A DNA stretch of 40,505 nt, from positions 1 through 40,505 of the forward strand of contig JAUNNY010000012.1 in NCBI GenBank assembly GCA_030531215.1, in the 5' to 3' direction. This DNA comes from Erysipelotrichaceae bacterium (GTDB lineage: Bacteria; Bacillota_I; Bacilli_A; Erysipelotrichales; Erysipelotrichaceae). Within the stretch, counting starts at the first letter, position 1; the number at the start of each line of letters is the position of its first letter. The notes below the pieces were generated by a model. That model saw only the letters and a program-made list of their open reading frames with translations, did not search any database and was not told the origin of the DNA. A program made the position numbers and the translations under genes. Shown here one piece after another: positions 13,955 through 19,040 of the stretch.

Positions 13955-15223
13955 GTGAAATATTATTTAGCGATTGATATTGGTGCATCAAGCGGCAGAC
14001 ACATCATTGGATACAAAGAGGGTAATGAAATAAAAACTCTTGAAGTATATCGTTTTAGTAATGGTGTTAAAGAACTTGACGGGCATTTAACTTGGGACAT
14101 CGACGAGATAGAAAGACAAGTTAAAATCGGCATTGATATTGCTATGAAACAATACATGATTGAATCATTATCTATTGATACTTGGGGTATTGATTATGTT
14201 TTATTAAATGGTGATGAAGTAATTTATCCTGTATATAGTTATCGTGATAATCGTACCGAAGGAATAATAGATGAAGTTCATTCAATTGTTAGTTTTGAAG
14301 AATTGTATAAATGCACTGGCAGTCAATTTCAAAGGTTTAATACCATCTATCAACTATACTATGATTTAAAAAATAAGCGTCTAGATACTGTGACTGATTT
14401 TTTAATGATTCCTGAATACTTACTATATCGTTTAACAGGAAACAAAGATAAAGAATTTACAGATGCCACAACAACAAGTTTGATAAATGTTGATACCTTA
14501 GAATTCGATGAAGAAATAATTGATAAGCTAAAACTTCCAAAACGATTGTTCAAAAAAATATCACAACCTAAAAAAGTGATTGGCGAATATAAAGGCATTA
14601 AAGTTGTATTCTGTGCAACCCACGATACAGGAAGTGCAGTTGAAGGAATACCAATGGTTGGTAATGAGCCATATATTTCAAGTGGAACCTGGTCACTTTT
14701 AGGAATAAAAACAGATAAGCCGATTGTAAGTGATGAATCTATGAGAGTTAACTACTCTAATGAAGGTGGTGTTAATTATAATCGTTATCAAAAAAATATA
14801 ATGGGTCTATGGGTTGTCAATGAACTTCAAAAAGAACTATGTCCAGAGTTAAGTGTTGTTGATATTACCAAATTAGCTGATGAATCAAACTATGAAGAAA
14901 CAGTTGATGTTAATTTAGATGATTTCATTTCACCTAAGTCTATGAAAAAGGCTTTTGATGATCATTTAGAAAACAAGCCAACAAGTAATGGTGATTATTT
15001 TAGATGTGCATACAAATCGTTAGCTATTTGTTATGCGGAAGCCATCGAAGAATTAGAGGTAAACACCAATAAAAAATATAGAGATTTATATATAGTCGGT
15101 GGCGGAGCCAAGAATTACTTATTAAATGAATTAACTAAAAAATACACAAAGAAGAATGTTATAGCATTACCTATTGAGGCAACTTCTTTAGGCAATTTAA
15201 AAATTCAAATGGAGGTCGAATAA
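13955..15223 (+). CDS. rhaB: L-rhamnulokinase, C-terminally short
   Basis: FGGY-family kinase that phosphorylates L-rhamnulose at C1. Marks are YYLAIDIGASSGRHIIG at the start, SIDTWGIDYVLL near residue 72, FNTIYQLYYDL near 130, EYLLYRLTG near 152, HDTGSAV near 225, SSGTWSLLG near 242 and VGGGAKNYLLNEL near 387. It ends at ATSLGNLKIQMEVE, about 35 residues earlier than typical RhaB proteins (around 480), and its last codons carry the GGAGG site for rhaM. The start is GTG, 6 nt after a TATAAT box, so probably leaderless. The TAA overlaps the rhaM ATG by 1 nt. Confidence 0.92.
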   Translation: MKYYLAIDIGASSGRHIIGYKEGNEIKTLEVYRFSNGVKELDGHLTWDIDEIERQVKIGIDIAMKQYMIESLSIDTWGIDYVLLNGDEVIYPVYSYRDNRTEGIIDEVHSIVSFEELYKCTGSQFQRFNTIYQLYYDLKNKRLDTVTDFLMIPEYLLYRLTGNKDKEFTDATTTSLINVDTLEFDEEIIDKLKLPKRLFKKISQPKKVIGEYKGIKVVFCATHDTGSAVEGIPMVGNEPYISSGTWSLLGIKTDKPIVSDESMRVNYSNEGGVNYNRYQKNIMGLWVVNELQKELCPELSVVDITKLADESNYEETVDVNLDDFISPKSMKKAFDDHLENKPTSNGDYFRCAYKSLAICYAEAIEELEVNTNKKYRDLYIVGGGAKNYLLNELTKKYTKKNVIALPIEATSLGNLKIQMEVE

Positions 15224-15540
15224 TGGAAAAATACGCATGGAAAGGCTTGGTAAAACAAGGATGTCTTGACGAATATATAAAAAGGCATAATGAAATATGG
15301 CCTGAAATGAAGCAGATGTTATTAGATGCCGGAATTAAAAATTATACAATTTGGAATGTTGGTAACGAAATGTTTGGCTACTATGAATGTGAAAATGGCG
15401 TTGAATATGCATCCAAGGTACAAGCGATGTCAGATATTAATAAAAAATGGGATGAATATATGAAAGATATCTTGATTATGGAGAAAGATCCAATCACCGG
15501 TGCTCAACCATTATTAAGAAAAGTATTTGAATTTAATTAG
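15223..15540 (+). CDS. rhaM: L-rhamnose mutarotase
   Basis: A 105-residue dimeric ferredoxin-like-fold enzyme that interconverts the alpha and beta anomers of L-rhamnose, supplying the form used by RhaA. Family marks are WKGLVKQGCLDEYIKRHNEIWPEM (the RHNEIWPE segment carries the catalytic histidine), NYTIWNVGNEMFGYYE near residue 42, and a C-terminal DPITGAQPLLRKVFEF. Length matches the family. It is coupled to rhaB by a TAATG overlap and lies 9 nt before rhaA. Confidence 0.95.
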   Translation: MEKYAWKGLVKQGCLDEYIKRHNEIWPEMKQMLLDAGIKNYTIWNVGNEMFGYYECENGVEYASKVQAMSDINKKWDEYMKDILIMEKDPITGAQPLLRKVFEFN

Positions 15541-15549
15541 GAGAGAAAA

Positions 15550-16779
15550 ATGAACAGATTTGAATCAGCAAAGAAAATTTATAAACAACATGGAATAGAT
15601 GTTGAAAAAGCTTTAAATCAATTAAAGAAAATAACGATATCTATTCATTGCTGGCAAGGCGATGACGTTGTAGGTTTTGATAGTAGACAAGCAGCTTCTG
15701 GTGGTATTCAAACAACAGGCAATTATCCTGGAAAAGCTACTACCCCTGAACAATTGATGGCTGATTTTGATAAAGTGCTAGAGTTGTGTCCTGGTAAAAA
15801 GAAATTAAATTTGCACGCATCTTATGCGATTATGGATAAACCAGTAGGCCGTAACAAGATAGAACCTAAGCATTATGCCAAATGGGTTGAATATGCTAAG
15901 AAAAGAAAAATCGGTTTAGATTTTAACCCAACATTCTTTTCTCATCCAATGGTAAAAGATGGTTTAACATTGTCTTCACCAGATAAGAAGATAAGAGATT
16001 ATTGGATTGAACATGGTAAACGTTGTTTAAAAGTTGCTGAATACTTTGCTAAAGAGTTGAAACAACCTTGCTATGTTAATTTTTGGATGCCTGATGGTTT
16101 TAAAGATTATCCTGCAGACCGCATTGGTCCTAGATTAAGAATGAAGGATTCTTTAGATAAGATTTTTAAAACTAAATATGATAAAAAACTAGTAATTCCT
16201 ACTTTGGAATCAAAGGTATTCGGCATCGGCGTCGAAGCATATACTGTTGTATCAGCAGAATTCTGTTTAGCATATGCTATGAAAAATAATATTACACCAC
16301 TAGTTGATAATGGCCATTATCATCCAACAGAAATGGTTTCAGACAAGATTTCAAGTTTATTAACTTTCTCAGATAAGATGATGCTTCATGTAACTAGGCC
16401 AATGAGATGGGATTCTGACCACGTTATTTCTTTTGATGACGAAACTAGAGAAATGATGAAAGAAGTTGTTAGATGTGGCGTAGATAAAGTTTCTTTAGCA
16501 ACTGATTATTTTGATGCATCAATCAATAGGATCAGCGCTTGGGTAACTGGTGTTCGCAATCTACAAAAAGCCTTATTATATGCTCTATTAGAACCAAACA
16601 AAGAATTGGCAAAACTACAAGATAGTAATGATTTTACTTCATTACAAGTTAAACACGAAGAGTTAAAGACTTTACCTCTTGGTGACATTTGGAATGAATT
16701 CTTAAATAGAGAAAACGTTAAACAAGACTACTTAAGTGAAATTAAGAAATATGAAAAAGAGGTTTTGAGCAAACGATGA
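15550..16779 (+). CDS. rhaA: L-rhamnose isomerase
   Basis: Metal-dependent TIM-barrel isomerase converting L-rhamnose to L-rhamnulose. The whole 409-residue length matches: ISIHCWQGDDVVGF near residue 30, GGIQTTGNYPGKA near 50, LNLHASYAI near 88, IGLDFNPTFFSHP near 118, NFWMPDGFKD near 177, and the metal-site stretch LVDNGHYHPTE near 250 with ACC-end DYFDASINR near 318. AGGAGAG lies 6 nt upstream. Its TGA overlaps the rhaD start by 4 nt. It is the central enzyme of the rhaB-M-A-D operon. Confidence 0.96.
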   Translation: MNRFESAKKIYKQHGIDVEKALNQLKKITISIHCWQGDDVVGFDSRQAASGGIQTTGNYPGKATTPEQLMADFDKVLELCPGKKKLNLHASYAIMDKPVGRNKIEPKHYAKWVEYAKKRKIGLDFNPTFFSHPMVKDGLTLSSPDKKIRDYWIEHGKRCLKVAEYFAKELKQPCYVNFWMPDGFKDYPADRIGPRLRMKDSLDKIFKTKYDKKLVIPTLESKVFGIGVEAYTVVSAEFCLAYAMKNNITPLVDNGHYHPTEMVSDKISSLLTFSDKMMLHVTRPMRWDSDHVISFDDETREMMKEVVRCGVDKVSLATDYFDASINRISAWVTGVRNLQKALLYALLEPNKELAKLQDSNDFTSLQVKHEELKTLPLGDIWNEFLNRENVKQDYLSEIKKYEKEVLSKR

Positions 16780-17588
16780 AAGATGTTAGAACAAGTGAAT
16801 TTGTAATAGAACTATCTAGAATGGCTACCAATATGTATCGTCTTGGGTGGGATGAGAGAAATGGTGGTAATATTTCATATCTTTTATATGAAGAAGAATT
16901 AAAAGAATATTTAGATACGAACAAAGTGATTCGTGATATACCTTTAGGTTTTGATGCTAAGGAACTTATAGGTAAATACTTCTTAGTTACAGGTACTGGA
17001 AAGTACTTTAAGAACGTTGAAAGAGATCCAGCATATAATCTAGGTATTTTAAGAATTAAAGAAGATGGCACTACTGTTGAATTATTATGGGGTTTTGAAG
17101 ATGGCGGCAAATTTACAAGTGAATTTCCAGCGCATTTAATGTCGCATATTGAAAGATTAAAAATATCTAAAAATCATCGTGTAGTTTTACATACTCATCC
17201 TCTAGCTACTATGGCTATGAGTTTTGTCCATCCTTTAAGTGATAGGGAATTCACACGTACCATTTGGAAGATGAATAATGAATGTATAGTTGTGTTCCCA
17301 GATGGCATTGGCGTTCTTCCTTGGATGGTTTGTGGCACCAACGAAATAGGTGAAGCTACAGCTCAAAAAATGAAAGACTATCGTATTGTGCTATGGCCAA
17401 ATCATGGTATATATGGTGTCGGTGACACACTAGATGAAGCTTTTGGTTTAGTCGAAACGGTTGAAAAATCTGCTCAAGTATATATGATGATTAATGATAA
17501 GGAAATAATTAATCCAATAACCGACCAAAACTTGAAAGATCTTGCAGCACACTTCAAATTAAATTATCGTAAAGATTTCTTAGATTAA
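16776..17588 (+). CDS. rhaD: Rhamnulose-1-phosphate aldolase
   Basis: Class II, zinc-dependent aldolase (RhaD/FucA family) that splits L-rhamnulose-1-P into DHAP and L-lactaldehyde. At 270 residues it is close to the E. coli enzyme. Marks are WDERNGGNIS near residue 27, FLVTGTGKYF near 70, SEFPAHLMSH with the catalytic glutamate near 116, HTHPLAT zinc histidines near 140, and WPNHGIYGVG near 207. It is the last gene of the operon and is followed by a terminator at its stop codon. No rhamnose transporter, regulator or lactaldehyde reductase is in the cluster. Confidence 0.95.
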   Translation: MKDVRTSEFVIELSRMATNMYRLGWDERNGGNISYLLYEEELKEYLDTNKVIRDIPLGFDAKELIGKYFLVTGTGKYFKNVERDPAYNLGILRIKEDGTTVELLWGFEDGGKFTSEFPAHLMSHIERLKISKNHRVVLHTHPLATMAMSFVHPLSDREFTRTIWKMNNECIVVFPDGIGVLPWMVCGTNEIGEATAQKMKDYRIVLWPNHGIYGVGDTLDEAFGLVETVEKSAQVYMMINDKEIINPITDQNLKDLAAHFKLNYRKDFLD

Positions 17589-17616
17589 AAACAGGCACAT
17601 AACGTGCCTGTGTTTT
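17587..17616. terminator. Bidirectional terminator between rhaD and tRNA-Thr
   Basis: ACAGGCAC / GTGCCTGT form an 8-bp stem around ATAAC, flanked by AAAA and GTTTT. It serves rhaD on the plus strand (starting at its stop codon) and the coaX-maf-tRNA transcript on the minus strand, 5 nt after the tRNA CCA. Confidence 0.85.
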
Positions 17617-17620
17617 ATGA

Positions 17621-17694
17621 TGGTGCCGACACCGTGAATTGAACACGGGATTTATCCTTACCATGGATACGTATTGCCACTATACTATGTCGGC
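17621..17694 (-). tRNA. tRNA-Thr (anticodon GGU), CCA encoded
   Basis: A full 74-nt cloverleaf on the minus strand. Acceptor GCCGACA/TGTCGGC (7 perfect pairs), D-stem GTAT/ATAC around AGTGGCA, anticodon stem TATCC/GGATA with loop ATGGTAA, T-arm CCGTG-TTCAATT-CACGG, discriminator A and encoded CCA. U33-GGU-A37 reads ACC and ACU (threonine); G1-C72 and C2-G71 agree with threonine identity. No promoter of its own is seen. Its first 15 nt are also the last five codons of maf, including the TAG stop, so it must be cut from the coaX-maf transcript. Confidence 0.93.
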
Positions 17695-18249
17695 TTTAAA
17701 TGTTCTTAAATGACGCAATACCTCAGCGATTGGCAATCCAACAACAGTGTAGTAGTCACCATTGATTGCTTTTACAAATTCACATCCTTTACCTTGAATC
17801 GCATAAGCTCCAGCTTTATCCAATGGCTCTGTTGATTCAACATAATCATTTATTTCTTTATCGGTTAATTCGTAAAAAGTTACATCAGTTATGCTAGCGA
17901 AAGTATCGGTTTTTTCTTTTGACATGATAGTAACTGCGGTTACTACTTGATGAGTTTTATTTGAAAGCTTATGAAGCATTTCTTTAGCATTTTCCATAGT
18001 CTTTGGTTTTCCCAATACTTCATTATTAATATAAACAATTGTATCAGAACCTATGACTATATTATCTTGATGATTTTCAAATACGGCATTTGCTTTTTGA
18101 TAAGATAATTTTTTAATTTCTTCTACAAGATTGTTACGATAATCTATTTGTTCATCTATATCGGCAACAATTACATCAAAAGGTATCCCTAACATATTAA
18201 GGAGTTCTTTTCTTCTAGGAGATTGAGATGCCAATATTATTTTATTCAT
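17680..18249 (-). CDS. maf: Maf family nucleoside triphosphate pyrophosphatase
   Basis: House-cleaning hydrolase (dTTP/UTP or modified-nucleotide pyrophosphatase) that turns noncanonical NTPs into NMPs. The start MNKIILASQSPRRKELLNMLG is diagnostic. Further marks are VIGSDTIVYINNEVLGKP near residue 66, the catalytic-lysine region and DVTFYELTD near 122, and AYAIQGKGCEFVKAINGDYYTVVGLP near 148. Length (189) is normal. Its ATG overlaps the coaX TGA by 4 nt. The last codons, encoding KADIV and the TAG stop, run into the tRNA-Thr gene, so cutting out the tRNA removes the maf stop codon from that transcript. Confidence 0.94.
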   Translation of the reverse strand: MNKIILASQSPRRKELLNMLGIPFDVIVADIDEQIDYRNNLVEEIKKLSYQKANAVFENHQDNIVIGSDTIVYINNEVLGKPKTMENAKEMLHKLSNKTHQVVTAVTIMSKEKTDTFASITDVTFYELTDKEINDYVESTEPLDKAGAYAIQGKGCEFVKAINGDYYTVVGLPIAEVLRHLRTFKADIV

Positions 18250-19004
18250 CGTTCGTATGTATAGTATATATAACTTAATCCTTTAGTTACAAAATCAGGA
18301 TCATATTCATCAAAGAAAGATATACATGGAATAACCATATTTCCTTGGCCACCGCATCCTTGAACAAATAAACTACCTTTTCCAATTTCGTCTTTTAATC
18401 CTGCAATTAAGAAGGCTACCATACCAATAAAACCATTGTAGATACCAACATTCATTGCATCAACTGTTGTGTTAGCTAAGAAAGTATTCTTTTTTACAAC
18501 TTCAATTTCTGGAAGTTGAGATGCACTATTCCACATTGATGAACAAATTTTTTTGAAACCAGGAGCGATAATGCAATGTTTGAATTCACCATTTTCTGTA
18601 ATGTGAATCAAAGCAGTACACGTTCCTAGAGAAACAATGATTTGTTCTTCAGGATGTTTATGATAAGAATATGCAGCCATAACCACTAAATCATCACCAA
18701 CTTCTTCAGGGTGTGGGACATCTAGTTTTATACCATAATTCTTATCTTGCACGATATCTATTACTCGACCTGTGACAATAGATGAAAGAGCATCATAAAT
18801 CTTTTCATATTCAGAAATAACTACGCATGATAATATAGCATCTTCAATGCAGTCTGCTCTTAAGTTGGATTTAAACAAAAAAGATAAGATAGCGTTGCGA
18901 TAATCATCTGGTCTATCATCTAAACATGTAAAGGCAACTAATTTGTAGGCATCATAGACACCAAACTTAATGCTTGTATTTCCAAAATCAATAGTTAACA
19001 GCAT
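18246..19004 (-). CDS. coaX: Type III pantothenate kinase
   Basis: First step of coenzyme A synthesis: ATP-dependent phosphorylation of pantothenate, by the CoaX (ASKHA-fold) type. Marks are LLTIDFGNTSIKFGVYD at the start, the substrate segment HPEEVGDDLVVMAAYSYHKHP near residue 97, VSLGTCTALIHI near 124, and APGFKKICSSMW near 147. Length (252) is normal. A minus-strand TTGTCA, 18-nt spacer and TATAAT end 6 nt before the ATG, so the message appears leaderless. It heads the coaX-maf-tRNA-Thr unit and is divergent from marR, sharing -35 bases with it. Confidence 0.93.
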   Translation of the reverse strand: MLLTIDFGNTSIKFGVYDAYKLVAFTCLDDRPDDYRNAILSFLFKSNLRADCIEDAILSCVVISEYEKIYDALSSIVTGRVIDIVQDKNYGIKLDVPHPEEVGDDLVVMAAYSYHKHPEEQIIVSLGTCTALIHITENGEFKHCIIAPGFKKICSSMWNSASQLPEIEVVKKNTFLANTTVDAMNVGIYNGFIGMVAFLIAGLKDEIGKGSLFVQGCGGQGNMVIPCISFFDEYDPDFVTKGLSYIYYTYER

Positions 19005-19010
19005 ATTTTT

Positions 19011-19040
19011 ATTATATGCTTATGCGTTTTTAATTGACAA
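19011..19040 (-). promoter_or_regulatory. Leaderless coaX promoter
   Basis: TTGTCA (19040-19035), 18-nt spacer, TATAAT (19016-19011), then 6 nt to the coaX ATG at 19004. The -35 lies on the same base pairs as the marR -35 on the opposite strand. Confidence 0.65.

Follow-up and report, generated by a model that had tools for sequence, protein, structure and literature searches.

A maf reading frame that ends inside a tRNA-Thr(GGU) gene in Erysipelotrichaceae

The window analysed here is a 40,505-nt stretch of DNA from an Erysipelotrichaceae bacterium (GCA_030531215.1, contig JAUNNY010000012.1, positions 1-40,505; genome G000). ARAGORN finds a single tRNA in the window, a tRNA-Thr with anticodon GGT at complement 17621..17694, and it lies among the following minus-strand features, given in the direction of transcription:

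19011..19040, minus strand: promoter-like site TTGTCA-18-TATAAT upstream of coaX, 11/12 matches, a candidate transcript source
18246..19004, minus strand: coaX, type III pantothenate kinase, sharing a 4-nt overlap (ATGA) with the start of maf
18263..18292, minus strand: promoter-like site TTGTAA-18-TATACT directly upstream of maf, 9/12 matches and at chance level, a second candidate source
18249..17680, minus strand: maf, Maf family nucleotide pyrophosphatase, a 189-aa open reading frame ending ...TFKADIV*
17702..17712, minus strand: the position of the usual -10 box of relatives, here maf coding sequence, with TAAGAA as best hexamer (-0.6 bits)
17680..17694, minus strand: 15-nt maf/tRNA overlap, GCC GAC ATA GTA TAG, which is tRNA nucleotides 1-15
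17694..17621, minus strand: tRNA-Thr(GGU), 74 nt with encoded CCA, from ARAGORN and Rfam
17591..17611, minus strand: intrinsic terminator 9 nt past the tRNA CCA, fold -14.6 kcal/mol, z -5.15

The first-pass annotation had read the last five codons of maf as nucleotides 1-15 of tRNA-Thr(GGU), and ARAGORN, Rfam and the maf open reading frame agree with this to the nucleotide. The shared segment comprises the acceptor 5' strand, U8, A9, the D-stem 5' strand, A14 and G15, with the maf stop codon TAG at tRNA nucleotides 13-15 and the last four sense codons (ADIV) also inside the tRNA. From general knowledge of its sequence, which starts MNKIILASQSPRRKELL, we take the protein to be Maf. In the window a terminator follows the tRNA and none separates it from maf. 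Converging on this unit from the other side are rhamnose genes at 13955-17588 (kinase, mutarotase, isomerase and aldolase, named by eye), which have the terminator hairpin at 17591..17611 in common with it; the hairpin is usable also by the plus-strand rhaD (rhamnulose-phosphate aldolase). The region holds no more promoter-like sites than chance would give. The TATAAT of the site at 19011..19040 lies just 6 nt from the coaX ATG (19005-19016), so that its transcript would be leaderless, while from a second site before coaX, at 19081-19053, the leader would be about 40 nt.

To place the overlap among relatives, maf was searched in the genus (36 genomes) and the family (272 genomes) and the tRNA in the family, and the results were joined at the sequence level into 80 maf/tRNA-Thr(GGU) neighbours. 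A full-length maf relative is present in most family members, the order maf then tRNA-Thr(GGU) is common across the family and in many genera, and coaX and maf are adjacent in nearly all members of the genus. In most genomes of the genus (for example L012 and L016) the opposite strand carries a tRNA-Leu(TAG) about 1.46 kb ahead of the maf stop; G000 and G001 have no such tRNA upstream of coaX and carry a MarR-type regulator there instead, with ABC transporters also present in the window. Comparison of the maf 3' ends revealed the same 15-nt overlap in three of the 80 neighbours: in G000, in G001, a second species of the same genus (maf 82% identical in nucleotide sequence), and separately in G119, which belongs to another genus. 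That two further assemblies, one of them from a different genus, carry the identical overlap rules out an assembly error and leaves an artefact or frameshift at the maf end exceedingly improbable, even though the window comes from a fragmented and incomplete assembly. A scan of genome contigs with Maf returned only distant named relatives, and these without the tRNA. Among 54 other tRNAs from four members of the genus, three are entered by open frames of 82-170 codons, none of which is established as a gene; the longest, in G008 (L086), enters a tRNA-Arg(CCG), where it reaches a stop at nucleotide 8, and may be due to chance.

The distribution of the overlap also indicates how it came about. 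G000 and G001 form one clade on the maf+CoaX tree, and since the overlap occurs only there and in G119, it arose, to judge by the sequences, separately at least twice. In G119 the maf product ends ...MQNSADIV and the stop is TAA, again at tRNA nucleotides 13-15, whereas most relatives end at about the same residue, near ...LKKYL*, with no ADIV tail. The congeners of G119 (G118 and G120-G123) and G124 (g9) end maf with TGA, TAG or TAA at a gap of exactly 1 nt, and the next base is always T. Within the tRNA the first stop is at nucleotides 13-15 in frame 1 and at nucleotides 8-10 in frame 2. The overlap most likely stems from an ancestral stop 1-2 nt before the tRNA, as in genera g8 and g9 and in G008, that shifted out of frame, after which the reading frame would have run on to its next stop, inside the tRNA itself (UAG or UAA at 13-15); we infer that a one-base slip of the gap-1 arrangement suffices to yield the 15-nt overlap. 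In both origins it is the tRNA that fixes where the frame ends, and ADIV is simply the tRNA read as codons.

The tRNA bears the marks of a working gene. It matches Rfam RF00005 at 63.4 bits (E = 1.3e-11), above the gathering score, with every one of the 21 cloverleaf pairs formed. When 13 distinct related tRNAs are compared, standard pairs fill 98.5% of the pair cells, and 13 of the 21 pairs have changed on both sides, a number reached by none of 500 shuffles. The G001 tRNA differs from that of G000 at 13 of 74 positions, ten of which belong to five base pairs that remain intact. Within the overlap the two tRNAs differ only by C6 to T, a change that is synonymous for Maf (GAC/GAT) and is matched by a compensating one at position 65. 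For the tRNA folded in isolation the minimum-energy structure is a different one, but it ties with the cloverleaf at -22.9 kcal/mol and so says nothing against it. The acceptor stem is the same as that of the G000 tRNA-Thr(UGU), which is no more than suggestive of charging by ThrRS. Only one tRNA-Thr(GGU) was found among all typed tRNAs in each of the two genomes (20 tRNAs in G000 and 35 in G001), a count that refers to assembled sequence only, with G000 about 69% and G001 96% complete. Another copy could thus be missing from G000, and tRNA-Thr(UGU) might partly read ACU and ACC, which together make up 104 of the 204 threonine codons in ten window genes. The arrangement has removed the tRNA's promoter, as might befall a decaying copy that maf merely overruns, yet we regard such decay as very improbable: the stems are all conserved with compensatory changes in G001 and other relatives, the CCA is encoded, and the match is strong for what is the sole Thr(GGU) found. 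Covariation rules out a tRNA pseudogene, and the initial description of a perfect tRNA-Thr(GGU) holds in the sense that the gene looks functional.

How the tRNA is transcribed was approached through its upstream sequence. Of 34 tRNA-Thr loci, 26 have a good -10 hexamer at a distance of 8-11 nt upstream, as against 7.5% of random upstream positions. G000 and G001 have no hexamer scoring above zero at this distance, and in the same 34-locus test the box is also absent from G008, G024 and G026. Among the 80 pairs, 50 of the 59 with a gap of at least 15 nt have a -10 box 7-12 nt upstream, compared with two of the 21 with a gap of at most 11 nt (overlaps included); as the species are related, the Fisher p of 9e-10 should not be taken as a real probability. 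Most of the nine box-less pairs at larger gaps, G024 and G026 excepted, show by eye a -10-like box that is slightly weaker or further upstream. Between maf and the tRNA, several long-gap members of the genus also have what looks by eye like a terminator hairpin and its T-run. In G005 (L139) and G025 (L140) a three-gene cassette on the strand opposite to maf separates the two genes, encoding a VTC-type domain protein, a small membrane protein and a secreted repeat protein (names assigned by eye), and the tRNA beyond it has its own -10. Because the box is usually present at wide gaps and mostly absent at narrow ones, the sequences identify an independent tRNA promoter as the usual state, lost where the genes closed up.

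An own-promoter scan with a sigma-70 matrix of approximate frequencies, a less clean measure than the positional -10 test, leaves G000 and G001 at shuffle level (best site in G000 TTGCCA-17-TCATTT, shuffle p = 0.25), and the minus strand from 17694 to 18236 contains no promoter-like site. Consensus scans do not prove absence, but the pattern across relatives argues that the missing promoter is a real and derived property. The earlier statement that no tRNA promoter is visible is thereby extended: what G000 has lost is the -10 box that most relatives keep. We consider it quite unlikely that an unrecognised promoter in the 3' part of maf drives a short transcript that supplies most of the tRNA, leaving the overlap with little effect. 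Most relatives do have an own promoter, and G006 retains a -10 (TATCAT) within its last maf codons, but neither G000 nor G001 has a hexamer above zero 8-11 nt upstream, maf has no promoter-like site on the minus strand downstream of 18236, and, of the 19 other genomes in which the gap is at most 11 nt, 17 have no box either. With no box at 19 of the 21 tRNAs of this gap class, the maf transcript is probably their sole source. At the sequence level G000 has no separate promoter between maf and the tRNA, and the missing -10 box supports the original proposal that the tRNA derives from the coaX-maf transcript.

The overlap, the structural conservation of the tRNA, the missing -10 box, the common downstream terminator and the widespread maf/tRNA neighbourhood can all be read directly from the genomes. 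Together they suggest, as a likely reading, that coaX, maf and tRNA-Thr(GGU) form one transcription unit, whose tRNA lost its own promoter and came to lie first against and then inside the end of maf, with the overlap tolerated. RNA polymerase would start upstream of coaX or maf and read through the tRNA to the terminator. Ribosomes would translate Maf as far as the UAG within the tRNA (nucleotides 13-15) and would briefly open the acceptor and D stems on the way; with no ribosome covering it, the tRNA would fold and RNase P would cut at nucleotide 1. The predicted products are the free tRNA and a maf mRNA that is five codons short at its end and would then be degraded, and ribosomes caught on the cut message would be rescued by tmRNA, whose gene is present in G000 (G000:C12:60167-60510, 107.8 bits) and in G001. 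That cleavage at nucleotide 1 leaves a stop-less maf mRNA, as first proposed, follows from the overlap as a prediction. The further claim that each transcript gives either tRNA or Maf, not both, is overstated: RNase P requires a folded tRNA, which leaves room for translation of a transcript ahead of cleavage. On E. coli secG-leuU, according to a title cited in PMC3985628, a terminator near the tRNA inhibits RNase P; the terminator 9 nt after the CCA, if it acted likewise, would further favour early translation.

The first-pass annotation went on to suggest that the overlap links tRNA processing to Maf dosage. In such a scheme RNase P activity or immature tRNA would set the amount of Maf through non-stop mRNA and tagged, degraded Maf, and the overlap would be kept for that reason. 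The geometry physically permits such coupling, the overlap arose twice, and it persisted in both G000 and G001 despite differences at 74 of 190 third codon positions. However, only three of the 80 neighbours examined have it, and most relatives avoid it, keeping the stop before the tRNA and ending maf at about the same residue with no tail. Its retention in G000 and G001 is what the constraint on the tRNA alone would lead one to expect and needs no selection: in each tail there are only four single-base changes that would bring back a stop ahead of the tRNA, and, with third positions about 39% diverged, the absence of any of them is, on a rough estimate, unremarkable. Regulatory coupling is on this evidence unlikely. 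Dosage control is possible as a reason for keeping the overlap, and we saw no evidence of it; the overlap is most likely a tolerated by-product rather than a regulatory switch.

A related pattern emerged, post hoc and not as a prediction, at the maf ends of promoter-less genomes whose gap is 8-24 nt. All nine (G185, G189, G182, G188, G190, G127, G187, G026 and G024; loci L148, L149, L150, L152, L153, L154 and L156 in g11 and g35, L028 in G026 and L035 in G024) have a stem of 8-12 pairs that ends 0-3 nt before the tRNA, with z from -2.6 to -5.2, and mostly with the maf stop inside the hairpin loop or next to it. The arms vary by species yet stay paired, as read from the sequences (AAGTACC/GGTACTT, AAGCACT/AGTGCTT), while G186, G183 and G270, with gaps of 6-7 nt, have no such hairpin. 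A hairpin at the 3' end is the usual protection of an mRNA against 3' exonucleases, and we infer that this one is a candidate for the maf mRNA 3' end after RNase P cleavage. More broadly, RNase P may make the maf mRNA 3' end across the family, the maf end having been remodelled after promoter loss to fit the cut: by a stop exactly 1 nt before it, by a hairpin, or by an overlap that makes the cut mRNA non-stop and limits Maf to unprocessed transcripts. We put this forward as a tentative idea, on balance doubtful.

A maf gene that ends in a single-copy tRNA is a natural test of the competition between translation, tRNA folding and RNase P on one RNA. The series within the family, from own promoter through hairpin and a stop 1 nt away to overlap, bears on the way in which a tRNA comes to depend on an mRNA and on how the cell handles mRNAs whose stop is removed by tRNA processing. 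The locus is also a caution for annotation pipelines that forbid overlaps between coding sequences and tRNAs.

Among known systems, we know of no reading frame that enters the tRNA in E. coli secG-leuU, and of the two only maf has its stop inside the tRNA, so that the cut removes it. As far as the title cited in PMC3985628 indicates, secG-leuU (Mohanty and Kushner 2008) otherwise has the same layout, with a coding gene, a tRNA and an intrinsic terminator on one transcript and release by RNase P. In the tRNA punctuation of animal mitochondria (human MT-ND1/TRNI and MT-ND2/TRNW; PMC9674279) the tRNA can likewise supply an in-frame stop, its excision leaves a stop-less mRNA, and ribosome rescue matters; of two human junctions in a bacterial translation system, MT-ND1/TRNI terminates and MT-ND3/TRNR does not (PMC9674279). 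Mitochondrial mRNAs, however, regain a stop by polyadenylation, whereas maf encodes four extra residues and no such repair is expected. Cut at nucleotide 1, its mRNA would end ...ACA TTT AAA, to which added A residues give no stop, and we therefore do not file maf under mitochondrial punctuation; it is a bacterial case, with predicted rescue by tmRNA. The predicted cut product is a 3'-truncated, stop-less mRNA like those rescued by tmRNA elsewhere (PMC3985003), but there the sources are transcriptional roadblocks, cleavage at stalls and decay, whereas here truncation would stem from tRNA maturation. Short same-strand coding overlaps in prokaryotes (PMC3887535) likewise involve loss of a stop with the next one inside the neighbour; with maf the neighbour is a structured RNA gene, so that RNA processing and translation are affected on the same molecule. 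Our literature search, of partial coverage and with narrow terms, found no report of a bacterial coding sequence ending inside a tRNA. Co-transcripts of mRNA and tRNA, and stops borne by tRNAs in mitochondria, are already known; what is new, as far as this search goes, is a bacterial gene that ends inside a tRNA, together with a graded series of relatives.
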